A stretch of DNA of 64,000 nucleotides from Anaerolineae bacterium (lineage in GTDB: Bacteria; Chloroflexota; Anaerolineae; Anaerolineales; E44-bin32), in NCBI GenBank assembly GCA_011192015.1, contig DUET01000074.1, forward strand, positions 96,875 through 160,874, written 5' to 3'. Both the position numbers and the translations under genes were made by a program. Every line of letters begins with the position of its first letter. Position 1 is the stretch's first letter. Below the pieces are notes generated by a model that was not told the origin of the DNA, searched no databases, and was given only the letters and a program-made list of their open reading frames with translations. Below, in pieces: positions 48,695 to 64,000 of the stretch.

Positions 48695-51600
48695 TTATCC
48701 ATCGATTTTGATGGTCGCTGGTGGCGGAACTTGCCAGATCAGCGACCAAAGGATCGGGGTCATTCTTGCACGCTTGAGCAACCACAGCAACCAAAGCCTG
48801 GAACGCAATCGCTTGTAAGCGCGCACAACTTCCTTGGTATCTACTTCAGCCCCTCCTCTAGGGCTGAAGACAAGCAGCACAATTGCCCTCACCAATACTT
48901 TCACGTCATTATTGGCCACCATAAGCCAATCGTTCCACCGGCTCGTTCGCCCCATGATCCGGCTGTATTGCGCATAGATAGAGGCAACATCAAATGGCGT
49001 ATGGAAAAGCTTCAATAGTATGCCTGCTTTTTTCGAAAGGCGGAGGAAGCGACCGTACGCTTTGGGTATGAGTTCTTCAGCAGAAAGGCGACTCAAGAAA
49101 TAGTCCGATAGATAGATGGCTGCAGCGAAACCACCAACCACGAGCACCAACCCAACGGTTATACCCACAGGCCAAACCCAATTTGAGATCTCAGGCTTCT
49201 CCTCGATCGGCTCCATATCGAGCGGCGTGCTGGCTGGGATCGTTGGTAGGGGTTCTGCCGGTCTTTCCAGTTCGGCACGCCCCGGCGTTGGCTCGAATGG
49301 TATCCATCCATAACCGGGGAAGTAGATTTCCGCCCACGCATGCGCCTGATCCTCGGTGACAAGATAGGCTCCGAGGGATTCGTCGTATTGTTCGGCAACA
49401 TGGCCTGTGATCAAACGGGCTGGAATCCCTGCCGCTCGGGAAAGAACGACCATGGCCGTGGCGAAGTAATCGCAATAGCCTTCTTCCAGCGTGAACAGGA
49501 AATATTGGGTGACATCCCGTCCTGCCGGCGCGAGTGACACGTCCAGCGAGTAATCCAATTCCCTGAGGTAACTCTCCAAGGCGATGGCACGATCGTAGGG
49601 TGTGGCTTCGATAGCCGTAAGATCACGCGCCAATGCCAGCACGTCATCAGGTACGGTCGGTGGAAGCGCCAAATATCGATCTATGATCCAATCGGGATAG
49701 GATCGCCTGGCGGATCGCAGCTCTGTCTCACTGTACAACGGCATGATCGAGTCGACGCGATAGGCCGTCGCTGAAATCATGGCGCCAAACAGGTCGAAAG
49801 CATCCATCCCCTCATCAACCGTTCTCCAGGCGGCTGTGGTGACTTGATCTGTGCGTATGGGTACCCCGACGGCATGCAGTAATCCCTCGTATCCCTCCAC
49901 GATGTCCAGGCTCTGACGAACGACATGGTAATTCTCCGGCCAAGTAAGCAGCAGCATCTGCCCGGCGCGATATTCGGAGAATCCCGCATACTCCGAAGCC
50001 CAACCCTGCCCCGTGTAGCGATCGTAGCTCAGACTGCGTATATAAATCCGTTCCGGTGGAATTGCACCCTCAACAGTCAAATCCAGACCCGGCCAGACCC
50101 CAAGTTTGATCGTCATAACAAGTTGTTCGGAAAGCTCCGGTCCGGACCCGAGCAGATGTTTGTTCGGGAGCGTCTCCGTATTGAGGGCATCCAGGGAACT
50201 TCGATGCTCCATGCGCGAACCAAATCCCAGGGAATCGCTAATCTCGGTACTATCCTGCTCGATATTCAGAGCGTTTTGAATGGCCTCTCGAATGCTGCTG
50301 AGGGAAATCGAGGGACTTACAATGGAAACCACCATCAATCCAGCTGCCAAGGCGCATCCGGCTATCGCCACGCGCGGACTGATCGAATCTTCAAAGAGCA
50401 GAAGGCCTTGTTCCCATTCGTGCTCATGCTCTTCATAGCGCACGAATACCCTTTGGAGGATCATCGCTCCCAGCATAAATGCAAGAATAAAACCGGGCTG
50501 ATCGGTGATCCCAGAGCTGATCGCCACGAGTAAAAAGGCTGGCGCTCCCGCTAAAACCGGATTCCTCTGCTTCACCACACCATACAGCGCCCAACCCGTA
50601 GCGAACCAAGCCGTGATACCCCACAGGATGACCACAACCACCGGATCAAAATACGCCTCGCCCTGGACCACCCCCGCCAGCCATTCCCACAGACGGGCTC
50701 CAAGCAAGCCCATTTTTTCCCCCAGCAACGCGAAGGAAGCTTGCAATGCTTCGGTTTCCGGGCCCGCGCTATCACTCACCAACGCACGCAAACCAACTTG
50801 GATATAGGTTACGATTTGAGACCCGATATCGCTCAACAGAACTTCCAGCCGACCAACCCGGATCATCGAGAGAATGATCCCGAAAATCCCGCTCAACACG
50901 CCCATGATCCATGGAGGCATGGTGAAGAGCAACAGTAGTCCGTTGATCAGCACTCCACCGCCGGTCATGAACCAAAGGAAACTATCATCCACTCCTTGAA
51001 TTGCATCTCCGAGCGTGCTTGCCATTCCCCACAGCAGCAGGGAGACCAATCCAATCGTGCGCAGATACCGGAGCCCCTTCTTCCACACGCTTCCGCGTCG
51101 CTCGCGGGTGGTTTTCTCCTGAACTTTCGGAAACAATAACCAATCCCACGGTTTTTCCTCAGGTTCTTCAGGCTGATCGAGGATGTCAGCGGTGATGATG
51201 TAATGGGTGATGCCCAAACGGATGAGCTGGTCCCGAATGGAACCTGTGCTCTCTGAGCTTCCGAATGTCGATGGATCCAGAAGGACGATTGTGGGGATGA
51301 CGCCGGATTGTCGTAGGATTTCAAGCGTCTCAAGCCACTCGGAGGACATGTTCGCGGTGATGATCACCAAGCTCACTTGCCGCTCCACAGACTCGCGAAT
51401 GCTCTCCAGTAGTTCCTTCAAACGAACCTGTCCGGGTCGCGCGGTTGCTAAAGATCGTAGGATCTTCCATAGGTGGGCATCGCCCACTGCGGGAGTATGC
51501 CAGAGAAACTCTTCCCCGTGGCCGATGAACCCGATGGCCTTACCCATCTGGTTGTAATGATTCACCAGGGATGCGGCCAGGATGATCCCATACTCCTCCG

Positions 51601-52369
51601 TGTTCCGCTGACCCTCACCGATTTGAACTTCCGCATCCAAATCCAAGACCAACCAAGCATCGCTGGATGGTTCGCTATCGAAGATCTGGACATAGGGTTC
51701 GTTTCTTCGAGCAGTGGTCGGCCAATGAATCCAACGCAAACTATCGCCATGCGTATAACTACGGACTCCTCCAGCAGCTACGGTCTGCTCCAAACCCTGC
51801 GCACGCGTTCTCCCTTCTCCAGCGCGACCGCCAGCAGCAATCTCGATTTGGGGCAGATCGATCACCTGAGGGGCCACCATCATGGTCGTGGTTTCGGGAT
51901 ATTCGACACGCACGCGATACATGCCCAGGGGATCCGAGGCTTCAAGGATGGTGGGGCCCATCGTGTACAAACCCCGGCGCGTGCACTTCCCACGGCTGAA
52001 CCAATGGCGATATCGACCCTTGCTGAAATCTCGAACACTGCTGATGCCATAGTCGTGCATGTCCGATTGGTCGATGATCCGGACCCACAATCCCGGTACC
52101 CAGCCGTCGTTGGCGATGATGACTCGTTCCTGTAATTGATCACCAACGCTCATCCAGCCAAAGCGCATTTCGCGTTCCAACCGCAAGCCGTCTTTCAAGG
52201 AGCGCGCCCAGAGATAGCTGACCAACCACGCGCCACCCAGGCCTGTGAATAAAATCATCCATCCTTTGTGAGGAAAGAAGAGTTGCACGAGCAGGACGAT
52301 CAACGCCATCACCGCTATGCCGCGGGACTCGAGCTGGAGGGTCCGGATGGGCTTTTCAAAACCCGACAT
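48695..52369 (-). CDS. DUF58 and TgpA-type transglutaminase-like membrane protein, fused
   Basis: A 1224-aa chain combining two proteins usually encoded separately beside MoxR. Residues about 15-50 are two helices. About 60-395 is a DUF58 domain with GDSLRWIHWPTTARRNEP. A polytopic membrane segment of several helices covers about 435-690. An extracytoplasmic transglutaminase-like domain follows with Cys966 (EEGYCDYFATAMVVLSRAAG), His1010 (DQAHAWAEIYF) and Glu1026 (WIPFEPTPG) where many relatives have Asp. A final helix (about 1055-1080) and cytoplasmic tail close the protein. The track starts 50 codons upstream; that extension has no domain, and AGG lies seven bases from the ATG at 52369. Role unknown; TgpA-like proteins are thought to modify or cleave envelope proteins. 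Confidence 0.9.
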   Translation of the reverse strand: MSGFEKPIRTLQLESRGIAVMALIVLLVQLFFPHKGWMILFTGLGGAWLVSYLWARSLKDGLRLEREMRFGWMSVGDQLQERVIIANDGWVPGLWVRIIDQSDMHDYGISSVRDFSKGRYRHWFSRGKCTRRGLYTMGPTILEASDPLGMYRVRVEYPETTTMMVAPQVIDLPQIEIAAGGRAGEGRTRAQGLEQTVAAGGVRSYTHGDSLRWIHWPTTARRNEPYVQIFDSEPSSDAWLVLDLDAEVQIGEGQRNTEEYGIILAASLVNHYNQMGKAIGFIGHGEEFLWHTPAVGDAHLWKILRSLATARPGQVRLKELLESIRESVERQVSLVIITANMSSEWLETLEILRQSGVIPTIVLLDPSTFGSSESTGSIRDQLIRLGITHYIITADILDQPEEPEEKPWDWLLFPKVQEKTTRERRGSVWKKGLRYLRTIGLVSLLLWGMASTLGDAIQGVDDSFLWFMTGGGVLINGLLLLFTMPPWIMGVLSGIFGIILSMIRVGRLEVLLSDIGSQIVTYIQVGLRALVSDSAGPETEALQASFALLGEKMGLLGARLWEWLAGVVQGEAYFDPVVVVILWGITAWFATGWALYGVVKQRNPVLAGAPAFLLVAISSGITDQPGFILAFMLGAMILQRVFVRYEEHEHEWEQGLLLFEDSISPRVAIAGCALAAGLMVVSIVSPSISLSSIREAIQNALNIEQDSTEISDSLGFGSRMEHRSSLDALNTETLPNKHLLGSGPELSEQLVMTIKLGVWPGLDLTVEGAIPPERIYIRSLSYDRYTGQGWASEYAGFSEYRAGQMLLLTWPENYHVVRQSLDIVEGYEGLLHAVGVPIRTDQVTTAAWRTVDEGMDAFDLFGAMISATAYRVDSIMPLYSETELRSARRSYPDWIIDRYLALPPTVPDDVLALARDLTAIEATPYDRAIALESYLRELDYSLDVSLAPAGRDVTQYFLFTLEEGYCDYFATAMVVLSRAAGIPARLITGHVAEQYDESLGAYLVTEDQAHAWAEIYFPGYGWIPFEPTPGRAELERPAEPLPTIPASTPLDMEPIEEKPEISNWVWPVGITVGLVLVVGGFAAAIYLSDYFLSRLSAEELIPKAYGRFLRLSKKAGILLKLFHTPFDVASIYAQYSRIMGRTSRWNDWLMVANNDVKVLVRAIVLLVFSPRGGAEVDTKEVVRAYKRLRSRLWLLWLLKRARMTPILWSLIWQVPPPATIKIDG

Positions 52370-52671
52370 GACATTACCTACGGCCAACCGCACGAGAGAT
52401 TTAGGACAGTTCTCAATGCTATCCTGGAGCGACGAATGCCCGATGGCGGTATGTGCTGCTTTGATGATGGTATCGTAGCATCGATGGCTGTTGCTAATCA
52501 GCCCCGATGATCCTTGCATGGGCCAATATCGCCGGGACTATCCAATGCGTTAATCATGCTGGATCCGCTGCCGAAGGGAATCTAACGGCAACAAATCATG
52601 GAACAAATTGATTGTCGCGCACATCGCAAGCATGATACCAAACCTGGCGGCCTGCTTCGATGATCTGAGTG
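52370..52671 (-). other. Intergenic region upstream of the DUF58-transglutaminase gene
   Basis: About 300 bases after the fused-permease stop. No gene is recognised. The 50-codon upstream extension of the DUF58 frame falls here and is judged non-coding. Only a weak promoter-like pair (TTAGCA-17-GATACC, minus strand, about 52500-52472) was seen. Confidence 0.35.
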
Positions 52672-55371
52672 TCATTCCTCCCGCAATCTTGGATTGAGGA
52701 CTCGATCCAAGGCGTAACCGATCAACGCAAAGGCAAATCCGGTCATCAGGAGCAGGGCGATGGGGCCCAGCACATAGTAGCGCGATCCCCAACTGGCGCC
52801 CTGATTCAGAGCTTGGTAGATCACTCGGCCCCAGGTTGGATACATGGATTTGATGTTGAACATGCCCAGGGTTGCCTCGAGAAAGACAAAGGCGGGGACC
52901 AGGGTCACCAATTGCGGAATGAGCACGGGGATGATGCGCGGCATCATGTAGCGCAGGATGATGCGCCAATTGCTGACACCATAAGCTTGCGCAGCCTCGA
53001 TATAGGGAGCTTCTTTGATCTGCAGGAAGGCTGCGCGGAAGGATTTCGTTGGACTGCCGAAAACATTCAAGATGACGATAATCCCCAGGATGGTCCAGAT
53101 ATTGACGTTGAAGACGGCATAGAACAGGACCCCCAGGGCGAGGATAGGCAGGATCATGTTGGCCTCGGTGATACGCTGGATGAGGGCATCCAACCACCCC
53201 CCGAACCATGCACCAGCCGCGGCGAGTACCATCGAGGCCACTGTCGTCAAGACAGCTCCGAAGAGCCCGATCGCCAGGGCAAACGGCATGCCCCACAGCA
53301 GCGGAACCAGCAGGTCGCGGCGCATGAAGTCGGTCCCCGCCATACCATACACCTGTCCCAGAATTACCAACTCTGCATCCAGATCCGCATCATCTTCAAA
53401 CAGCAATCCCTCGATTCGCAGCTCGTAGGTCCCCTTGAGAGGAGCCGTGGAGTCAGAATTCGGATCCAGAAACAGCTCCGATAAATCAGGGTCGCCTCTC
53501 CCGATGGGATCTTGTTCATCCCATACGTCCAACGCAAAGGGCGATACCTCGGCATGTCCTGGCGTATGCTCGGCTAGATCGATGCGCGATCCCGCTGCGA
53601 CGGACATCTGTTTCAGCTCGATCTCGCGTCCATCAGGCGTGATCCAGGTCATGAAAACAAAAGGTCTCTTGAGTTCAAACTGCGGGGTGAAATCAATCAG
53701 CAGTTCCTCAGGCATGGCTGCATAGGAATAATCGAACGAGAAGGTGATGAACACACTCGAAGTCTCATTCGAACCTGGTTCGATGGTTTTCTCAACACCG
53801 TCGTCATGTTCGGTGAGCACAACCGTTGAAAGAAGGGTATCCTTTCGAAACCAATTGATCCATTCTGGTTGTGCAAGTTTCGGAGCGTAATACTTCCCGG
53901 TCAATCCTTCTGTGTACCAGCGTTCACCCACCTCCAGATAAGGAAGTTCAACTACAGCATAGATCGAGCCCCCGACAAGCAAGGCGATGATAGCCAATCC
54001 CACGATGGCTGAGGGATAACTGAACAACTCCCCCATCGTCTTCATCGAAGCCCGCCATCTGGCTTTGAAGAACTCCCAATTGGAGCTCGTGGGAAGCGTT
54101 GCACGTTGCTTTGGCAGAGGCCTGCGTTTCATGCGAGGCGGCGCAATGCTCGTTGGCGATCGCCTCTTCATCCACCATTTCCTGAGGCTGGAAAGCCACG
54201 ATGTCCTCTGGACAATTCGCAATGCTGAATCCTGCTTCTGCATCCTGATGCGGGGATCGACGATGGCATAGATCAAATCCAGAAGAAGTACCGTAAAACC
54301 CAGGATGTAAGCAAAGACGACCACGATGGCGATGACGATCACCATCTCTCCGGGGAACATCTGCTCGCTCCAGAAGTTGGGGAGGGATAGGATGTAGAGG
54401 TTCCCGATACCCGGCCAACCGAAAACGATCTCCAGGGCTGTGGTCATTTGCCAGAAGGAAACCAAAGTCAGCGCAAAGCTTGTGATCACATAGGGCAACG
54501 CTGGTTTCAAGACGTGACTGCGATTGATCGTCTTTTGGGGCAAACCAATCGCCTGAGCAAGTTCAACATAATCCTCGCGGGCATAGATCAGGAAGAATGT
54601 ACGCCATGTATAGACGAGTTGGAAAAGCAGGCTGATGACGATGGCCGATACCGGCAGGAGCATATGCTTGATTACAGCAAGTACGTAACCGATCTTCGTT
54701 TCCGGGGGAAACGGATCGTACATGCCTCCGAAGGGAAGCAGGCGTAATTCCAGTGCGAAGATGAAGATCAGCAAGAGGCCGAGAACCCAACTGGGAATGG
54801 ATGAAAATGGTGCCAAAAGGGAAAGTAATTTGTCCTGCCATTGCCCATGCTTTCGGGAAAGAGAAAGCGCAAGAGGGATTCCGATCATGAAGATCAGGAG
54901 GTACGCCGATCCCACCAGGAGCAAAGTGTTCGGAAGATGCTGGAAGATGATGGATTTTACATCATCATAATCCTGCCGCATGGCTCGTGCACCAGGTGCA
55001 GAAGAGAGGTTGAGGAAGCGTATACTTCCCCAATTGAGCGTCAGAGCATTGAACGTCCAGCGGATATGCCGCGGCCAGAATGGAAGGGACAATCCTGTTT
55101 CATCCGCCATATTGTTATAGACGAGCATGACGACTTGTTGCAGACACTCCGAGTCAGCACCCACGAGTCCATAAGACGTCCATCGTGCTTCCTCGATGAT
55201 TCTTGCCTCGACATTCTGATCGATCTGCCCTCCTGAGTTGGCCAGCAGAACGGCGCCGAACGTCCCCAAAATAATGGTGACGAGGATCATTCCGGCCCTT
55301 AAAAGGACGAACCGAATAACGCTTCGCGCAGTGCTGGAATCTTGATCTTGAGACTGGAATGCAGATCCCAT
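52672..55371 (-). CDS. Dipeptide/oligopeptide ABC transporter permease, DppB-DppC fusion
   Basis: An 899-aa chain joining both permeases of a peptide importer. Residues about 1-375 are DppB-like: six helices, the ATPase-contacting EAA loop near EDYVELAQAIGLPQKTI, and the typical end IYAIVDPRIRMQ. A basic, proline-rich linker spans about 375-445 (RKWWMKRRSPTSIAPPRMKR). Residues about 446-899 are DppC-like: one helix (about 452-476), an extracytoplasmic insert of ~200 residues (476-678), then the conserved loop GMAGTDFMRRDLL and five helices, with EAA loop EAPYIEAAQAYGVSNWRI and end DRVLNPRLREE. Both halves resemble the separate permeases at 58889-61375. No adjacent binding-protein gene. Confidence 0.93.
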   Translation of the reverse strand: MGSAFQSQDQDSSTARSVIRFVLLRAGMILVTIILGTFGAVLLANSGGQIDQNVEARIIEEARWTSYGLVGADSECLQQVVMLVYNNMADETGLSLPFWPRHIRWTFNALTLNWGSIRFLNLSSAPGARAMRQDYDDVKSIIFQHLPNTLLLVGSAYLLIFMIGIPLALSLSRKHGQWQDKLLSLLAPFSSIPSWVLGLLLIFIFALELRLLPFGGMYDPFPPETKIGYVLAVIKHMLLPVSAIVISLLFQLVYTWRTFFLIYAREDYVELAQAIGLPQKTINRSHVLKPALPYVITSFALTLVSFWQMTTALEIVFGWPGIGNLYILSLPNFWSEQMFPGEMVIVIAIVVVFAYILGFTVLLLDLIYAIVDPRIRMQKQDSALRIVQRTSWLSSLRKWWMKRRSPTSIAPPRMKRRPLPKQRATLPTSSNWEFFKARWRASMKTMGELFSYPSAIVGLAIIALLVGGSIYAVVELPYLEVGERWYTEGLTGKYYAPKLAQPEWINWFRKDTLLSTVVLTEHDDGVEKTIEPGSNETSSVFITFSFDYSYAAMPEELLIDFTPQFELKRPFVFMTWITPDGREIELKQMSVAAGSRIDLAEHTPGHAEVSPFALDVWDEQDPIGRGDPDLSELFLDPNSDSTAPLKGTYELRIEGLLFEDDADLDAELVILGQVYGMAGTDFMRRDLLVPLLWGMPFALAIGLFGAVLTTVASMVLAAAGAWFGGWLDALIQRITEANMILPILALGVLFYAVFNVNIWTILGIIVILNVFGSPTKSFRAAFLQIKEAPYIEAAQAYGVSNWRIILRYMMPRIIPVLIPQLVTLVPAFVFLEATLGMFNIKSMYPTWGRVIYQALNQGASWGSRYYVLGPIALLLMTGFAFALIGYALDRVLNPRLREE

Positions 55372-55733: not shown

Positions 55734-56468
55734 TTATTGGGCTTCAATCCGTATCAGGTAAACCGTAGAGATGGTCAATGCAAGCAGAAGGGTGAGCACC
55801 AGGATGATTCCCCCGAACATCCAGTTGCCCGTCATGCCAACAATGGTGCCGGCGATGATGCAAACCGCCAGGCCTGCCATATTTGCGAAGGCTCCCAATG
55901 CCCTGGCCCTCAAGGGGCGATTCAAAAGCACCCACAGAACCACACCTACAAACATGCAGACGAGTGCTATGGTGGCCAGGGAGAAGAAGATCTGATTCCC
56001 CGTGAGGAGGGTTGTTTTCACATACAGAACCCCGCAGGCTCCTTCGCTGGCAGGGAAATCATATCGAGGGAAGCGACGGATTTTTACGAGGATCAATCGT
56101 TCGAAGGCAACATCGTCTGGCGTTATGGTCCAATAGATGGCGCCGGTTTCGCCTGCTTCCAAGGGCAAGGCCGTGTTGTCCTCCGTGATCAGCGTTGCGC
56201 TTCCCTGACTGATGTAAGTTCGGAACCTGAAATCAATAGCGCGATTGGAAGTGTTTGTTAACGTTACGGATACTCTGCTGGTCTCCTTGTCGGTGATGAT
56301 GATCGGGCAAGCCAGATTCTTGAGGGGCGCATCGAAGCGATAGGTTGCGCCGAAGCGCATGGCTTCAAAATCCCCCACGATCGTGATTCCTTCCAGGGCT
56401 ATGCCGATCACTGCACCAATAATGAAGAGTAGGATTGCCAACGCTCGAGTTACATTCTTCCCCATCAT
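55734..56468 (-). CDS. Membrane protein with extracytoplasmic beta-rich domain, unknown function
   Basis: A 244-aa protein. Helix at about residues 8-30, then ~130 extracytoplasmic residues with the look of an Ig-like beta sandwich (VSVTLTNTSNRAIDFRFRTYI, LEAGETGAIYWTITPDD, two cysteines at about 54 and 144), then three helices (about 158-180, 190-212, 215-238). AGGAG lies five bases before the first of two ATG codons. No family is recognised. It stands between two peptide-transport gene sets, so an accessory envelope role is possible but not shown. Confidence 0.7.
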   Translation of the reverse strand: MMGKNVTRALAILLFIIGAVIGIALEGITIVGDFEAMRFGATYRFDAPLKNLACPIIITDKETSRVSVTLTNTSNRAIDFRFRTYISQGSATLITEDNTALPLEAGETGAIYWTITPDDVAFERLILVKIRRFPRYDFPASEGACGVLYVKTTLLTGNQIFFSLATIALVCMFVGVVLWVLLNRPLRARALGAFANMAGLAVCIIAGTIVGMTGNWMFGGIILVLTLLLALTISTVYLIRIEAQ

Positions 56469-56701: not shown

Positions 56702-56932
56702 TTATTGTCTGTCGTTGTCCGCCTTCTTTCGAAGATAGATATCCAGGGCTCCATAAAGTCCAAGGAGCAGACCAACCACCGAGGCGCCGTAGGAGGCAAA
56801 ACCCAAGAGGAAGCCCGGGTTGATGAGCCTGATGACCATCAGCAATGGAACCACAAAACCGATGAGCACCAGCACGAACCCAATGAGTATGAAACGGAAG
56901 GCTCGCGTGGTTATCACTGGTACAACCAACAC
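56702..56932 (-). CDS. Small two-helix membrane protein (76 aa)
   Basis: GTG-started frame overlapping the 3' end of the dppF-type gene by 19 bases. Two long hydrophobic helices (about 12-36 and 42-66) and a charged C-terminus (RKKADNDRQ). Overlap suggests co-translation with the transporter operon. No family is recognised; it could be an accessory subunit or a spurious overlap. A GTG five codons further in is another possible start. Confidence 0.55.
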   Translation of the reverse strand: MLVVPVITTRAFRFILIGFVLVLIGFVVPLLMVIRLINPGFLLGFASYGASVVGLLLGLYGALDIYLRKKADNDRQ

Positions 56933-57912
56933 GCGACCTGGTGGCCGGGAACGGGTTCGAAATCCGGAGGTTCCTTCACTTCACACAATCCCTCGATGAG
57001 CTTGGGACATCGCGGGTGGAAGCGGCAGCCAGGTGGAGGTTCGATCAAGCTCGGCGGCTCTCCAGGAGGAACGTCCTTCATGATAAGCGCATTTTCAGCA
57101 TCCGGATCCGAAGTCGCAGCCAGCAGGGCTTCGGTGTAGGGATGCATGAAGTTGTTCAGCAGTTCATCCACGGTTGCTTTTTCAACCAGTTTGGCCGCGT
57201 ACATGACGAAGATGCGCTCCGAGAAGTATCGCACTGTGGAGAGATCGTGGGTGACGTAGATCACCGCAAGGTGGTGAGAATCCTGCAATCCTCGTAACAG
57301 TTTGAGAATCTCAACCCGCACGGAGGCATCCAGCATGGATACTGGTTCGTCGGCGACGATGAGCTTGGGTTCGAGAATCATCGAGCGCGCAATCACGATA
57401 CGCTGCTGCTGCCCCCCGCTGAGCATGTGCGGAAACTTGGGCAGGAACTCCTCCACAGGCTCCATCTTGACCTCTTTCATCACATCGTGGATGCGCTGCT
57501 TGCGGACGTTCCTATCCCTGACGCCATTGACGATCAGCGGTTCTTCCAGCGTGCGGTTTACGTTCATGAAGGGTGCCAGTGCACCATACGGATCCTGCTG
57601 AACAAAACCTACCATGGCGCGATAATCCCTTGTTTCACGCCTGCCTTTGTCGCTCAGATCCTGACCTTGAAACCAGATAGAGCCATCCGTGGGAGTATTG
57701 AGCCCCAGGATGGTCTTCATCAAGGTGGTCTTTCCACATCCGCTCTCGCCGACGATGCCGATCGCCTCACCTGCCTCGAGAGTAAAGTTCACACCATCGA
57801 CAGCGCGTACGTATCCTGCGCGTCCGAATCCCCAGCGACGCAGTTCAAACCAAACGCGCAAATCCTCAACCTTCAGTAGTTTTCCATTCATGCTGCTTGT
57901 GTCCATGGACAT
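56914..57912 (-). CDS. Dipeptide ABC transporter ATP-binding protein (DppF type)
   Basis: A 332-aa ATPase. Walker A GESGCGKTT, Q-loop VGFVQQDPYGALAP, signature LSGGQQQR, Walker B LIVADEPVSMLD, switch His VTHDLSTVR. The C-terminal extension has the family cysteine motif CRFHPRCPKLIEGLC. It lies 15 bases after the DppD-type gene and is the last canonical component of the operon that begins with the binding protein. Confidence 0.94.
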   Translation of the reverse strand: MSMDTSSMNGKLLKVEDLRVWFELRRWGFGRAGYVRAVDGVNFTLEAGEAIGIVGESGCGKTTLMKTILGLNTPTDGSIWFQGQDLSDKGRRETRDYRAMVGFVQQDPYGALAPFMNVNRTLEEPLIVNGVRDRNVRKQRIHDVMKEVKMEPVEEFLPKFPHMLSGGQQQRIVIARSMILEPKLIVADEPVSMLDASVRVEILKLLRGLQDSHHLAVIYVTHDLSTVRYFSERIFVMYAAKLVEKATVDELLNNFMHPYTEALLAATSDPDAENALIMKDVPPGEPPSLIEPPPGCRFHPRCPKLIEGLCEVKEPPDFEPVPGHQVACWLYQ

Positions 57913-57927
57913 GCTATGCTCCTCGCT

Positions 57928-58884
57928 TCACGCATACAGCCAGCATTTGACGCTGCGTCTACCTGTGGTCAGCATCGGGGGATCTTGATCGCACTGGTCA
58001 AAGCGCTTCGGGCACCGCGGTGCGAAACGACAACCCTCGCCAAGACCGATCAGGCTTGGCGGCTTTCCACTGATGAACTCCGGTTCCTCGTCCCCTCGCA
58101 ACCTGGGCACGCTTGCCAGCAGCTTCTGTGCATAGGGATGGCGGGGGTTGGCGAAGAAATGCGAAGCGTCGTCAACTTCCACGATCTGCCCGGCGTACAT
58201 CACAGCGACGCGATTGGCCAGTTCGCTGGAGGTGGCGATATCATGCGTGATCAGGATGTAGCTGATCTCCATCTCCTGCTTGATGCGTTTGAGCAGGTTG
58301 AAGATGTTGGCCTGTGTGAGAACATCCAGCGCGGATGTGGGCTCATCCAGAATGACCAGGCTGGGCACGGTTGTGAGCGCCATGGCAATAGCGATGCGCT
58401 GCCGCATGCCGCCACTGAGCTCGAAGGCATAGCGGTTCAAGAATCCCAGTGGGACTCCCACGCGCTGAAACATGGTGCTTGCCTGTTCCAGCGCATCCTG
58501 CTTCTTGGCAGCAAAGTGCACCATCATGGGTTCAGCCACTTGATCACCAACACGCAGTACCGGATTCAAAGCATTCATGGCCGCTTGGGGCACCATGGAC
58601 ATCTTCACCCAGCGAACCTGTCGCCGGAATTCCTCATCACTGAGCGTCATCACGTCCGTGTCCCCCAGGTGAACCTTACCTTCGTATTTCGCCACATTGC
58701 GTGGAAGAAGACGCAGAATCGCTCTTGCCAAGGAGGTTTTCCCGCATCCGGATTCACCGAGAATCACGATGGCTTCCGTGCGGTTGAGTTCCAAGTCGAC
58801 ATGATCGACTGCCTGAACATCTCCATGTGTAGTGCGGAAGTAGAGATTCAGGTCTTCAACGCGGAGTAGGCTTGCATCTGTCAT
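57928..58884 (-). CDS. Dipeptide ABC transporter ATP-binding protein (DppD type)
   Basis: A 318-aa ATPase. Walker A GESGCGKTS, signature LSGGMRQR, Walker B LVILDEPTSALD, switch His ITHDIATSS, and C-terminal cysteine motif CRFAPRCPKRFDQC. It pairs with the DppF-type subunit as the nucleotide-binding heterodimer and begins 4 bases after dppC. Confidence 0.94.
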   Translation of the reverse strand: MTDASLLRVEDLNLYFRTTHGDVQAVDHVDLELNRTEAIVILGESGCGKTSLARAILRLLPRNVAKYEGKVHLGDTDVMTLSDEEFRRQVRWVKMSMVPQAAMNALNPVLRVGDQVAEPMMVHFAAKKQDALEQASTMFQRVGVPLGFLNRYAFELSGGMRQRIAIAMALTTVPSLVILDEPTSALDVLTQANIFNLLKRIKQEMEISYILITHDIATSSELANRVAVMYAGQIVEVDDASHFFANPRHPYAQKLLASVPRLRGDEEPEFISGKPPSLIGLGEGCRFAPRCPKRFDQCDQDPPMLTTGRRSVKCWLYA

Positions 58885-58888
58885 CGGA

Positions 58889-60238
58889 TTAAAGGCCTCG
58901 CAATTTAGGGTTGAAAATTCGATCCAGAGAGAAGCCCACCAACGAGAAGCCGATTCCCGTCAGAGTCAGCAGGATCGCGGGTTCAAGCATCCAGTAATAG
59001 TAACCGTTGTAGACGGCTGCGTTACCCCATGCATCGTAGATGATCTTTCCCCATGTTGGCAGAACAGGATCACCCAAGCCCAGAACCGCAAGGGTCGCCT
59101 CCAGGAAAACGAACGTGGGAACCGAGAGGATCAGGGCGGGAATCAGGACGGGGATGAGGCGCGGGAGGAGATAGCGCATGACGATGCGCACATCACTGGC
59201 TCCGTAGGCCTGCGCGGCCTCGATGTAGGGCGCTTCCTTGACCTGCAGGAACATGGCGCGATAGGTCTTGATCGCTGCGCCGAAGATGATCAAGAGGATG
59301 GTAACGCCCAGAATGACCCACAAGCTTTTCGAGTAGAACGTTCCCACCATGATGAGGATCGACAGGAATGGAAGCGTCAAGTTGACCTCGGTGATGCGCT
59401 GGATGATCCCATCCACAACGCCTCCAAACCACACGCCGAAGGCGGCGATGATGATCGTCGATACGGAGGAGCCGACAGCTCCCACGAGACCGAACGCCAA
59501 CGCAATGGGTGCCCCCCAGAGCAGCGATACCATCAGATCGCGGCGGCGGTGATCCGTTCCCGCCAAACCGTAGACCTCCCCATGCAGGACGAATTCGGCA
59601 TCGATGGTTGAGTTCTCCTCGAAGGTCAGCACCTTGAGCTCGACCTGATACTCCCCTTTCAGCGGAACGGGGTCTTCGGGATCCGAATCCGGATCCTGGA
59701 ACAGCGCAATGCGGGCAGCATTGTTACCCAGTCTGCGGGTCAGCCTCTCATCCTGGGAGAAGCGATAGGATTCCTGCCGGCTGACGCCCATGTCTACGAT
59801 GCGGAACTCGCGTCCATCCGGTGTGGTCCAATAGACAGACACGAATGGTTCATTCTCCACATATTCGGACGTGAAGAAAAACGCCAACTCCTGTGGGAAT
59901 TCATCATAGGGGTAGTCAAAGTGGAATGTATACGTGAGATCACTGAAACCCGCAGAGGTTTCCTTGGTTTCCAGGTCCACTGATTCATCCGTGTTGAGGA
60001 TGGCGATCGATTCTGGAAGTTGATCTGACCGGAAGAGATTCACCCACTTCGGCAGGGCATTGCGAGGATTCATATACCAAACATCAGGGCCACCTCGCCA
60101 AAGCCTGAGGGCCTCATCGTAGGGGATGGAAACAATCGCGTAGACCGCCAGCGCGATCACGCCAAGCAGCACCAGAGATCCCATGACCGCCGATGGATAT
60201 CGCAGTAGGTCCTTTAGGGAAGCCTTGATGGATTGCAT
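58889..60238 (-). CDS. Dipeptide ABC transporter permease (DppC type) with large extracytoplasmic insert
   Basis: A 449-aa permease. DppC proteins are usually ~300 aa; the extra length is an insert of ~190 residues (37-226) between helix 1 and the conserved loop YGLAGTDHRRRDLM. The insert is beta-rich and similar to that in the fused permease (both have a TPDGRE turn and PLKG.Y...L segments). The remaining part is typical, with EAA loop EAPYIEAAQAYGASDVRI and C-terminus DRIFNPKLRGL. It lies 3 bases after dppB. Confidence 0.93.
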   Translation of the reverse strand: MQSIKASLKDLLRYPSAVMGSLVLLGVIALAVYAIVSIPYDEALRLWRGGPDVWYMNPRNALPKWVNLFRSDQLPESIAILNTDESVDLETKETSAGFSDLTYTFHFDYPYDEFPQELAFFFTSEYVENEPFVSVYWTTPDGREFRIVDMGVSRQESYRFSQDERLTRRLGNNAARIALFQDPDSDPEDPVPLKGEYQVELKVLTFEENSTIDAEFVLHGEVYGLAGTDHRRRDLMVSLLWGAPIALAFGLVGAVGSSVSTIIIAAFGVWFGGVVDGIIQRITEVNLTLPFLSILIMVGTFYSKSLWVILGVTILLIIFGAAIKTYRAMFLQVKEAPYIEAAQAYGASDVRIVMRYLLPRLIPVLIPALILSVPTFVFLEATLAVLGLGDPVLPTWGKIIYDAWGNAAVYNGYYYWMLEPAILLTLTGIGFSLVGFSLDRIFNPKLRGL

Positions 60239-60241
60239 AGT

Positions 60242-61375
60242 TTAACTACTCCCAGCGCCGATTTTCACTCGAGGATCAACCAGCGCGTAAACGAAATCGA
60301 GCAGAAACACGGTCAGTACGAGCATGTAGGCATAGATGATCGTCAATCCGACGATGACCGCCGTGTCGTACAAACCGATTGCGGTGTAGTAAGTACGCCC
60401 CAAACCCGGCCAAATGAAAACCGTCTCCAGGATGATCGACCCCGTCCAGAGAGCGATCAGGGTGAGGCTGAAGTTGGTGATGATCGTCGGGAGGGTCGGC
60501 CGCAGGATATAACGTCGCTCGATGGCACGATCCGAGAGGCCCTTGGCCTTTGCCATGTCGACGTAATCCTCGCTGGAATACACCAGGAAGAACGTTCGCC
60601 AGTTGTAGATTCCCAGAAAGATGTTTGCAATCACGATTGCGGAAACCGGAAGAATGGCGTGTTTGAGTACGGAAAGCGTGTACCCAAGCTTCGTTTCCGG
60701 TGGTGGCGAATCCACCATGCCATTGAAGGGAAGGATGCGCAGCACCGCCGCGAAAATGAGAATCAGGAAGATGCCATAGAACCACGATGGTGCTGAGGAT
60801 GAGGGAGATAGGGCGATAACGAGCCTGTCCAGGAAGCTTCCGTATTTCCTCGATAGGGCAAGCGCAGCGAACACGCTGCCGAAGAAGAGAATGAAATTCG
60901 CGACTCCCATGATCAGCAGAGTCGGCCCCAGGCGTTCCTGGATGATCAGCCTGACCTCCCGCGAGCCCTCGTCGCTCGTCATGAGTTGGGCGCGTCCTAA
61001 ATCGAGCACCATGGCTTTGAAGAGAAATCGGAAACTGCGGATCACGAACGGCTGATCCAAGCCCAATCGGCTTTCCTCAAGCGTAACCTGCTCCGCGATC
61101 CAAGCAGCTCTAACGGACGGATCCAAGGTTTTGAAATTGGGATCGTTCTGGATCACCAATGCGATGTTCTCACGAATCTGCCCGCGTATGATGCTGTCCA
61201 CATAGCCGCCCATGTTGGCGATCAAGATGGTCAGGTAGACACCAACGACAACGGTTAGGATGAGGATGACAAAGCGAACACCGGTATATTTCGCCACTCT
61301 CGTAAGCGTGCCTACGAGCGGGTTCTGCTCAGGAACGTCCCCACCTGCTTGAAGTGCGTGAGCTTCCGAACTCAT
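60242..61375 (-). CDS. Dipeptide ABC transporter permease (DppB type)
   Basis: A 377-aa six-helix permease. N-terminal cytoplasmic segment and helix (about 30-52), a ~90-residue extracytoplasmic loop, then five helices with EAA loop EDYVDMAKAKGLSDRAI and end VYALVDPRVKIG. Similar to the N-terminal half of the fused permease at 52672-55371. It begins 102 bases after the binding-protein gene, with a hairpin in the gap. Confidence 0.94.
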   Translation of the reverse strand: MSSEAHALQAGGDVPEQNPLVGTLTRVAKYTGVRFVILILTVVVGVYLTILIANMGGYVDSIIRGQIRENIALVIQNDPNFKTLDPSVRAAWIAEQVTLEESRLGLDQPFVIRSFRFLFKAMVLDLGRAQLMTSDEGSREVRLIIQERLGPTLLIMGVANFILFFGSVFAALALSRKYGSFLDRLVIALSPSSSAPSWFYGIFLILIFAAVLRILPFNGMVDSPPPETKLGYTLSVLKHAILPVSAIVIANIFLGIYNWRTFFLVYSSEDYVDMAKAKGLSDRAIERRYILRPTLPTIITNFSLTLIALWTGSIILETVFIWPGLGRTYYTAIGLYDTAVIVGLTIIYAYMLVLTVFLLDFVYALVDPRVKIGAGSS

Positions 61376-61477: not shown

Positions 61478-64000
61478 CTACTCGGTCACGAACTCGAGCG
61501 AGGAGATCGTAGGAATGCTGACGGGGATCGCAACAACCGCAACTTCGATCTTGTTGGATCCTGCTGCCAGCGCACCTGTCGTTTCTGCGCTCAAGGTGAA
61601 CTCGAAGACGCCGCCACCCAGCGCTGTGGCATCCACCACTTCGACGATCGCACCCGTGGCATCGTAGAGGATGTACTTCACGGTGGCGATCTCATCGTCG
61701 GGATAGGGCTCATCAGCGTAGGTTACGTAGATGGTGTAGGTGACTGCTTCACCGATGGTCACCCGTCCGGGGCCATCCAGCTCGACAACCGCCAGCTTCG
61801 GCTCGGCGAATCCAGACCACTTGCTCGACAGATCGACGTAGTTCTCGTAGTGCTTGAGCGTGGCGGTCTTCTCAACCAAGAGTACCTGGTCGAGGTAGTA
61901 CGGACCCGTGCCGACCCAGAAGTGACCGTGGTCTGCGTACCAGGCCTGGAGGTTGGCGTAGCGCGTTGCAGCCTCGTCGGCCGTGATGTAGGCACCAAGC
62001 GTCGGTTCGTAGGGGATGTAGGTATCAGCAGCAGCCTGATCCAGATAACCGCTCAGGATCTCCAGGCTGGGGCCGCCGATCCAGCTCATCCAGTCCACTT
62101 CCAACGCATCCGACTTGTCGGACGAGTACGCCAGCGCTTCACCAGCTTCGGCGAGGTTGGCCACAGCCATCATAGCCCAGGAGCTGTTGCCGTAGCCATA
62201 CTCAGGCCAGAACTGCGTGCGGAAAGGAACCGCGCACTGTTCGGCATCCAGGTAGTACGTGTCGCTGTAGAGCTCGATGCTCAGCGGATCTTCTGACAGG
62301 ATGCGCCATCCTTTGAACGTGGACTGGAAGGATGCAAGCGTGCCAGCGTACGATTCGTCATAAATCGCGCTGTCCTCTTTACCCCAGTCGAACGTAAAGA
62401 TCATGGCCATGACGAAGTCACCGATGCTCATTGCGCTTCCATCATGCCAGAAGACGGTGTCGAACAGGTCGGCTGGGTAGTTGATGATCACGTGACGCTT
62501 GGCGGTGAGGCCTTCGGGATACAGATCACCAACCGTGATGAAGGTCTGCGCCACGGGATCCCAATCGATCCAGACATCCGCCGGCACGTCGATCTGCGGC
62601 AAGAAGCTCAGATCCACCCAGTCATAGGTCTTGCCAACAGGCAGGCCTTCCTGGATCTCCACCGAGGCGCTCTCAATGCGCTGAGGCAGAGTGAGGCCAG
62701 TGTGAGGATTGGGGATCGCGTCCCAGTCGTTGGTCGCAATCTGCCACTGGGAGTCGTAGGTCCAGTTGCTGCCTGCGGGCGGGTTCGGGGGGTCAACGAA
62801 CAGGTCGGGCGTACCCCACCTGACGATGCCGCCCTCGAACGCATCGTAGCGCAGCGTATGCGGCCAGAGTGTGTTGATGTCGACGCCTGCGGACAAGTCG
62901 TAGGCTACATCCAGGGAGGGGTGCCACGTGCTCGCACCACGACCGTCCACCACCCAAACCTTGTAGGAGTGGTTGAAGGTTTCAGCCAAGCAGATCTCGA
63001 ACAAGTCTCTGCGTTCGTCAAGAGTCGAGAAGGTGTTGTTGGCCAGCGCTTCGGAGCAATCAAAGAACTCATCTGAGAGCTCGTAGGCCTGCCACAGCGG
63101 GCTGAACCCGTAGCCACTGTTGGGTGAGTAGAAGAACTGGAAGTCGCCACCATCATCGCGCGCGACTGCGCCGGAGCCCCAGGCGCCGGTGTACAGGTGC
63201 CATAGGCCGTCATTGGGATCACCCAGGATCCACAGCGGCGATGCCTCGGATGAGGTCTTGTACTGGCGATCTACTGCGAAGCCAACCGCTTCAAGCTGAT
63301 TGGCAACGTAGTCGCCAATGGGGATGCGGGTGCCGTCGGAGTCATTGCGGATGAGGAAGATCAGCTCGATGACTTCGCCTTCGTAAGTCCACATGTCATC
63401 AGCATTCTTCACCGCACCCATGGCTTCCAGTTCCGTGGTGAACACGGCATCTGCCTTCTCGAAGTCATATGCATACTTGGCTTCGAGGGGGCGGATCAAG
63501 TCGATGTAGCGTGCGTAGTCCGGGAAGCCCGACACCAAGCTGAAGAACTTCGGAATGGCCGTTCCACCGTAGATCTCCTGATCGATGTAGTCTCGATCAA
63601 TCAGCCAGTTTAGAGCCTCGCGGATATTCGCACTGTAGAAGGGGTTGAATCCACCGGTTCCATCAAACACAGGACCCACGGGGTTAAGGGTGATGTCGTA
63701 GTAGAGACCGAACTGGTAGGATCGCTCCAGACCAGCCGCTTCAATGGCCTCGAAGTCCTGCGGTGTGGAAAGGTTGGAAGCATAGAGGTCGACAGCGCCA
63801 GCATCGATCTGCGTCACGGCGGTGTCAGACCCAACGACGGACATAGCGACCGTATCCAGCCAGCCGCCCCGGCGTGTCGACACTGGGGCCTCAGGCTCAA
63901 CTGGCACCTCAACGGTCACTACCTCTCCTGGCACCTCAACTTCCACGGTGACTGTGGGGCCTGCACAAGAGCCCAACGTCAGGGCCAGCACAGTCAATCC
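61478..64000 (-). CDS. Peptide ABC transporter substrate-binding lipoprotein (SBP family 5), N-terminus outside window
   Basis: Over 840 residues are visible. The frame stays open to the window edge; the visible beginning GLTVLALTLGSCAG is the end of a signal peptide with a lipobox (LGSC), so the true start lies just outside. A short Val/Glu/Pro-rich spacer follows (VEVEVPGEVVTVEVPVEPE). The main body is a family 5 solute-binding protein (for example FYSANIREALNWLIDRDYIDQEI). It is larger than the usual ~550-aa proteins. The last ~110 residues (after about 730) form an Ig-like beta domain (VELDGPGRVTIGEAVTYTIYV). It delivers peptides to the DppB/DppC permease downstream. Confidence 0.92.
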   Translation of the reverse strand, partial: GLTVLALTLGSCAGPTVTVEVEVPGEVVTVEVPVEPEAPVSTRRGGWLDTVAMSVVGSDTAVTQIDAGAVDLYASNLSTPQDFEAIEAAGLERSYQFGLYYDITLNPVGPVFDGTGGFNPFYSANIREALNWLIDRDYIDQEIYGGTAIPKFFSLVSGFPDYARYIDLIRPLEAKYAYDFEKADAVFTTELEAMGAVKNADDMWTYEGEVIELIFLIRNDSDGTRIPIGDYVANQLEAVGFAVDRQYKTSSEASPLWILGDPNDGLWHLYTGAWGSGAVARDDGGDFQFFYSPNSGYGFSPLWQAYELSDEFFDCSEALANNTFSTLDERRDLFEICLAETFNHSYKVWVVDGRGASTWHPSLDVAYDLSAGVDINTLWPHTLRYDAFEGGIVRWGTPDLFVDPPNPPAGSNWTYDSQWQIATNDWDAIPNPHTGLTLPQRIESASVEIQEGLPVGKTYDWVDLSFLPQIDVPADVWIDWDPVAQTFITVGDLYPEGLTAKRHVIINYPADLFDTVFWHDGSAMSIGDFVMAMIFTFDWGKEDSAIYDESYAGTLASFQSTFKGWRILSEDPLSIELYSDTYYLDAEQCAVPFRTQFWPEYGYGNSSWAMMAVANLAEAGEALAYSSDKSDALEVDWMSWIGGPSLEILSGYLDQAAADTYIPYEPTLGAYITADEAATRYANLQAWYADHGHFWVGTGPYYLDQVLLVEKTATLKHYENYVDLSSKWSGFAEPKLAVVELDGPGRVTIGEAVTYTIYVTYADEPYPDDEIATVKYILYDATGAIVEVVDATALGGGVFEFTLSAETTGALAAGSNKIEVAVVAIPVSIPTISSLEFVTE

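Follow-up and report, generated by a model that had tools for sequence, protein, structure and literature searches.

A predicted beta-sandwich domain in a DppC-type permease, its circularly permuted binding protein, and a possible docking role

The window that we analyzed, a stretch of 64,000 nucleotides from an Anaerolineae bacterium, carries on its minus strand the operon of an Opp/Dpp-type (type I) peptide importer. The solute-binding protein (SBP) of this operon is a natural circular permutant of the family-5 SBPs, with one fixed breakpoint near SBP_bac_5 position ~145, and its DppC-type permease bears a large extracytoplasmic insert. We favor, with some reserve, the reading that this insert is a dedicated extracytoplasmic dock for the SBP, in which case the importers that possess it would make up a distinct subclass. 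A key issue for ABC importers is how an SBP is held on its permease and opened there, and here both partners are apparently altered at once.

The DppC insert and its predicted fold

The DppC/OppC-type permease of the operon (permC; 449 aa, 58889-60238, minus strand, reading frame beginning at 60238) matches BPD_transp_1 over residues 263-447 with a score of 64.4 bits against a curated cut-off of 26.4, as expected for a DppC/OppC protein. Likewise, it has the coupling helix and the GTD loop at homologous positions (Opp4C 58-278; EAA..G segment EAAQAYGAS). The NCBIfam DppC/OppC-type profiles, Opp4C included, reach permC only from about residue 215-226 onward, and a Pfam search of permC did not return the OppC_N domain (PF12911), which is present in a remote relative, L136. 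Helix 1 comprises residues ~14-37, GTD begins at residue 227 and a second hydrophobic stretch begins at ~234. Between them lies the insert (residues 37-226; 59561-60130, minus), which is acidic (36 D+E, 16 K+R), lacks Cys and is followed directly by the loop GTDHRRRDL (59534-59560, minus); GTD..RRD is invariant in a family alignment. The initial annotation had described an insertion of ~190 residues just before this loop. Its coordinates are exact, but ~190 residues is the length of the entire helix-1-to-GTD segment: in solved DppC/OppC chains the part that aligns with the GTD region begins at residue 64-84, compared with ~226 in permC, which leaves a net gain of ~145-160 residues. Thus, permC shares with DppC/OppC of the E. 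coli DppBCDF type (PMC12136057; PDB 8z1v, 8z21, 8wd9) the BPD_transp_1 core, the GTD..RD loop and the SBP-B-C-D-F operon, and differs from them by this gain, which is predicted to fold as an ectodomain between helices 1 and 2.

The insert sequence gave no match in Pfam or NCBIfam, and its best match among PDB sequences had an E-value of 0.54. An AlphaFold2 model built with 82 aligned relatives predicts an all-beta sandwich (mean pLDDT 88.2, core 92-98) of about nine strands and short helices, with the strands at 41-182 of the modelled stretch; the core corresponds to permC residues 76-219 (59582-60013, minus). The initial annotation had allowed that the insert might be an already described standard domain or might yield no predicted fold, and we found neither. 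These results support the view that the insert, as modelled, is one conserved, foldable extracytoplasmic domain and not a described one. A Foldseek search of the model against the PDB returned only generic jelly-roll or beta-sandwich look-alikes (pro-BMP9, CBM61). Because the top matches have TM-scores of at most about 0.4, no solved structure is close to the predicted fold and the function of the insert cannot be read off it.

Within the insert, conservation is unevenly distributed. Helix 1 is followed by a lead-in of ~33 residues (IPY.EA.RLW....W..NP..APPAW.N.F; residues 38-70; 60029-60127, minus), which has a mean p-distance of 0.30 compared with 0.55 for the beta part and whose P, W and APP.W positions persist in remote homologues. 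The insert can therefore be divided into a lead-in that is conserved and a beta-sandwich that varies. Conserved alignment positions fall largely in the lead-in, TPDGRE and KG.Y.

The insert recurs far beyond chance. A homologous ectodomain insert is present in the window in a fused DppB-DppC permease (899 aa, two BPD_transp_1 stretches; 52672-55371, minus), where sequence comparison with permC places it at residues 476-678 (53338-53946, minus). This homology had been proposed in the initial annotation, and it is borne out by C-halves that are 42% identical over 464 columns and by the presence in both of the motifs TPDGRE, PLKG.Y and G.VYG.AGTD. A third copy, also fused, is encoded elsewhere in the same genome, in Chloroflexota, the phylum to which the window belongs, 30 of 301 genomes carry the insert, and relatives occupy at least 476 stretches in GTDB contigs. 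The domain is common, and the claim that it is conserved across paralogues stands, except that it is not peculiar to the two paralogues of the window but is a hallmark of a large operon family. The best 80 of these relatives are nearly all from Anaerolineae and Caldilineae, with some from MAGs labelled Bacillota, and they include three cultured Anaerolineae (Anaerolinea thermolimosa, Longilinea arvoryzae and Bellilinea caldifistulae). In another phylum, to which a MAG labelled Bacillota had led, the insert is present in 15 of 250 genomes and a remote second insert subfamily, that of L136, in 22 of 300. The two subfamilies are weakly homologous; the profile of the first meets L136 at 16.6 bits. 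A search of the plasmid collection for relatives that bear the insert and span 80% of the query gave none.

Most of the 80 loci have the gene order SBP, DppB, insert-bearing DppC, DppD, DppF. In the window, the DppB/OppB-type permease permB (377 aa; 60242-61375, minus) is recognized by BPD_transp_1 and the Opp4B profile, and the DppD/OppD-type and DppF/OppF-type ATPases atpD (57928-58884, minus) and atpF (56914-57912, minus) each by ABC_tran and oligo_HPY.

A circularly permuted binding protein and its pairing with the insert

The SBP gene (61478-64000, minus) encodes 840 aa in the window, its 5' end being cut by the contig end. Part A (residues 48-291; 63128-63859, minus) matches SBP_bac_5 positions 148-361 in Pfam and is the canonical C-terminal part placed first. 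Part B, the canonical N-terminal part placed second (approximately residues 468-722, WHDGS ... GTGPYYLD; 61835-62599, minus), is assigned from a profile alignment to PDB 7fi3 and from Pfam matches to SBP_bac_5 25-152 in homologues. The second half of the window SBP alone gave no Pfam match to SBP_bac_5, and those of close relatives match it at positions 25-152 or 23-76, the matches being weak but consistent. The best PDB match to a profile built from 30 family members is 7fi3, the 732-aa Thermococcus kodakaraensis OppA with a bound pentapeptide, with both domains significant and in swapped order: profile positions 481-733 align to chain residues 65-307, and positions 70-310 to residues 324-585. 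The motif [IV]R.A precedes WHDG in 62 of 66 full-length SBP relatives, the remaining 4 being without a WHDG match. When the model of the window SBP (pLDDT 92, pTM 0.87) is aligned in sequence order by Foldseek, no more than about half of any canonical SBP is covered. The permutation is clearest in the 574-aa SBP of L136, where SBP_bac_5 141-353 (153 bits) is followed by 7-144 (87 bits). Similarity to SBP_bac_5 extends over both parts, being weak for the second part in the large type and strong in the L136 type, which places these proteins in family 5 (cluster C), although the SBPs of insert operons depart from the canonical part order of that family, with 148-361 placed ahead of 25-152. The closest solved relative, T. 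kodakaraensis OppA, is likewise a long family-5 SBP with an oligopeptide ligand, and by this homology the substrate of the importer is probably an oligopeptide; OppA is canonical, whereas the window SBP has its parts swapped and an added Ig-like C-terminal tail (approximately residues 738-840; 61481-61789, minus; weak FlgD_ig match, beta strands in the model). This tail is absent from the compact SBPs of the L136 type.

Insert and permutation occur together. A long match to the permuted SBP is present in 29 of the 30 insert-bearing Chloroflexota genomes and in none of the others (n = 301 in total); the sole exception is G106, in which the insert is present but no SBP was found. The Fisher value for this association is 1.4e-39, a figure that ignores kinship and is not to be read as a probability. 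The remote subfamily served as a blind test after L136 had been noticed, with 19 further loci. All 18 of its insert operons that have an SBP in view have a permuted one, and the 19th is a contig fragment without an SBP. A haloarchaeal match proved to be an ordinary insert-less DppC with a canonical SBP; as an insert-less control, it was scored canonical by the same procedure as the 18 loci. In a reverse search with the L136 SBP, long matches were confined to 21 of 300 genomes, each of which also bears the insert, and matches elsewhere were part-length. The genome from which the window comes has two other DppC-like matches, both near SBPs whose parts match in canonical order.

In another DppC-like protein of the same genome (L004; G000:C89:43460-47233), helix 1 and a GTN loop are separated by a long segment that differs from the insert and looks unrelated to it. 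By eye, this segment partly resembles a solute-binding fragment (VGKVGGTTTLDGLIGVDTRIGIVRGS).

A second type of permutation sets a limit on this pairing. The SBPs at L166:5750-7471, L167:6350-8035, L168:6665-8410 and L169:6056-7705 are also circularly permuted and also belong to Opp operons, but they break at ~285, in contrast to ~145 in the window type, and their DppC proteins are ordinary and insert-less (290-316 aa). In the two tested by Pfam (L166 and L169), SBP_bac_5 287-366 is followed by 1-284, giving a breakpoint of ~285. Natural permutation of family-5 SBPs therefore arose more than once and, since these permuted SBPs stand beside ordinary DppC proteins, permutation as such needs no insert; it is the break at ~145 that the insert accompanies. 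Permutation of family-5 SBPs at two points would bear on automated annotation and on biosensor design. The literature that we searched, with subscription journals largely outside its coverage, described neither a family-5 SBP with circular permutation nor this DppC insert, and nothing on the pairing of the two.

We also compared the evolutionary distances of the subunits by a mirror-tree analysis of 61 complete operons, in which the partial correlations control for rate-matched columns from the other subunits. Distances of the beta-domain correlate with those of the SBP with an r of 0.84 and a partial r of 0.64. The corresponding partial r values with the SBP are 0.30 for DppB, 0.09 for the transmembrane part of DppC, and 0.15 and -0.12 for the ATPases. 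A permutation test of the whole insert against the SBP gave a p of 0.0005, and the strongest signal comes from SBP part A and the region around the canonical termini. These sequence comparisons support the conclusion that the beta-domain and the SBP evolve together to a greater degree than the SBP and any other subunit tested. They support, in turn, contact or a tight functional dependence between the two, although such a signal falls short of proving contact and can also reflect shared exposure or shared substrate-driven selection. The docking of a modified binding protein, as proposed in the initial annotation, agrees well with a cognate SBP that is permuted and co-evolves with the beta-domain; the docking step itself would be our extrapolation from these patterns. 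The gating of large peptides, offered there as another possible role, would likewise be conjecture.

A candidate dock for the binding protein

In the mechanism that we propose, the conserved lead-in (IPY.EA..LW..W..NP..APPAW.N) would anchor the insert on the membrane side of DppC, and the variable beta-sandwich would contact the permuted SBP, mainly its part A. The insert would keep the rearranged SBP in register over the pore, and the peptide would thereby be released into the DppB/DppC cavity. The contact, its geometry and any effect of the insert on transport are what we infer here. We are evenly divided on the broader reading that receptor and dock were rebuilt together, with an SBP permuted at one fixed point, a DppC beta-domain that receives it, conservation of the pair across at least two phyla and a docking geometry unlike any seen in solved Opp/Dpp complexes.

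In the maltose importer, the P2 domain sits between helices 3 and 4 of MalF. This domain (residues 91-271) is one of the extracytoplasmic parts of the permease that known type I importers use at the SBP (PMC3150292). The DppC insert is comparable to MalF-P2 in being a large extracytoplasmic domain of one type I importer permease subunit, with the dock role proposed here by analogy; it differs in its position between helices 1 and 2 of DppC and in having a circular permutant as its partner SBP. The DppC beta-domain would thus play the role that MalF-P2 plays for MalE, by means of another domain at another place. We found no indication of a homologous fold, with no MalF structure among the 50 Foldseek matches listed and no sequence match. 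A second precedent is the scoop motif of E. coli DppB, which is likewise an extracytoplasmic permease element at the SBP interface and is inserted into the SBP cleft (PMC12136057). The scoop is about 30 residues long and belongs to DppB, whereas the insert is a ~145-residue beta-domain in DppC.

The co-occurrence of insert and permuted SBP could also reflect shared descent. One ancestral operon could have gained an ectodomain in DppC together with a permuted SBP and passed them on by vertical descent and operon transfer, with no interaction between them. The operon is compact and moves as a block, most carriers within a phylum are related, and the weak homology of the two insert subfamilies (16.6 bits) is compatible with such a history. 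We nevertheless regard co-inheritance alone as rather unlikely, because the beta-domain tracks the SBP better in rate-matched columns than do the transmembrane part of DppC, DppB and the ATPases, all of which are equally co-inherited, and because the association of insert and permuted SBP persists across very divergent members. The same covariation bears on the idea that the insert is a lid that shuts the outward cavity during release and has no part in recruiting the SBP. Closure of that cavity during release has been proposed for the DppB scoop, and the insert is joined to DppC in the periplasmic region between helices 1 and 2, a place at which E. coli DppB and DppC differ (PMC12136057). Good conservation of the lead-in would also suit a lid. 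A pore lid should co-vary with the transmembrane part, however, and the beta part is fast-evolving and co-varies with the SBP, so that we consider this role improbable.

The jelly-roll-like appearance of the insert raises the further idea that it is a ligand- or surface-binding domain for peptide, glycan or cell-wall material close to the importer, and weak Foldseek matches to carbohydrate-binding modules (TmCBM61, CBM6) point in that direction. Their E-values of 1e-3 to 1e-4, TM-scores of at most about 0.4 and identities of 7-15% are typical of generic beta-sandwiches, and conservation is concentrated largely in the lead-in, TPDGRE and KG.Y; such a function is, in our estimate, highly improbable. 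Counting against the dock reading itself are the orphan fused permeases that retain the insert without an adjoining SBP, and genome G106. The many sequences and cultured hosts make the coupling of insert and SBP directly testable.

Fused permeases and neighboring genes

Seven fused permeases group together in a single, fully supported clade. None of the six fused permeases examined away from the main operon has an adjoining SBP or cognate ATPases, and their neighbors included no conserved partner among the proteins compared. The fused permease is thus a single-origin, mostly orphan offshoot of the insert operon family. The window copy and that of L083 stand after the main operon. Since both halves of the fused permease retain the coupling regions, it may share the SBP and ATPases of the operon.

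Two further genes flank the fused permease. Between it and the operon, a 244-aa protein (55734-56468, minus) has, by eye, predicted membrane helices and an extracytoplasmic stretch. Relatives of this protein follow the operon in L069 and L108 only, among the loci scanned, and its link to the importer is uncertain. Downstream of the fused permease, a 1274-aa open reading frame (48695-52519) resembles, by eye, a DUF58 and transglutaminase-type membrane protein.
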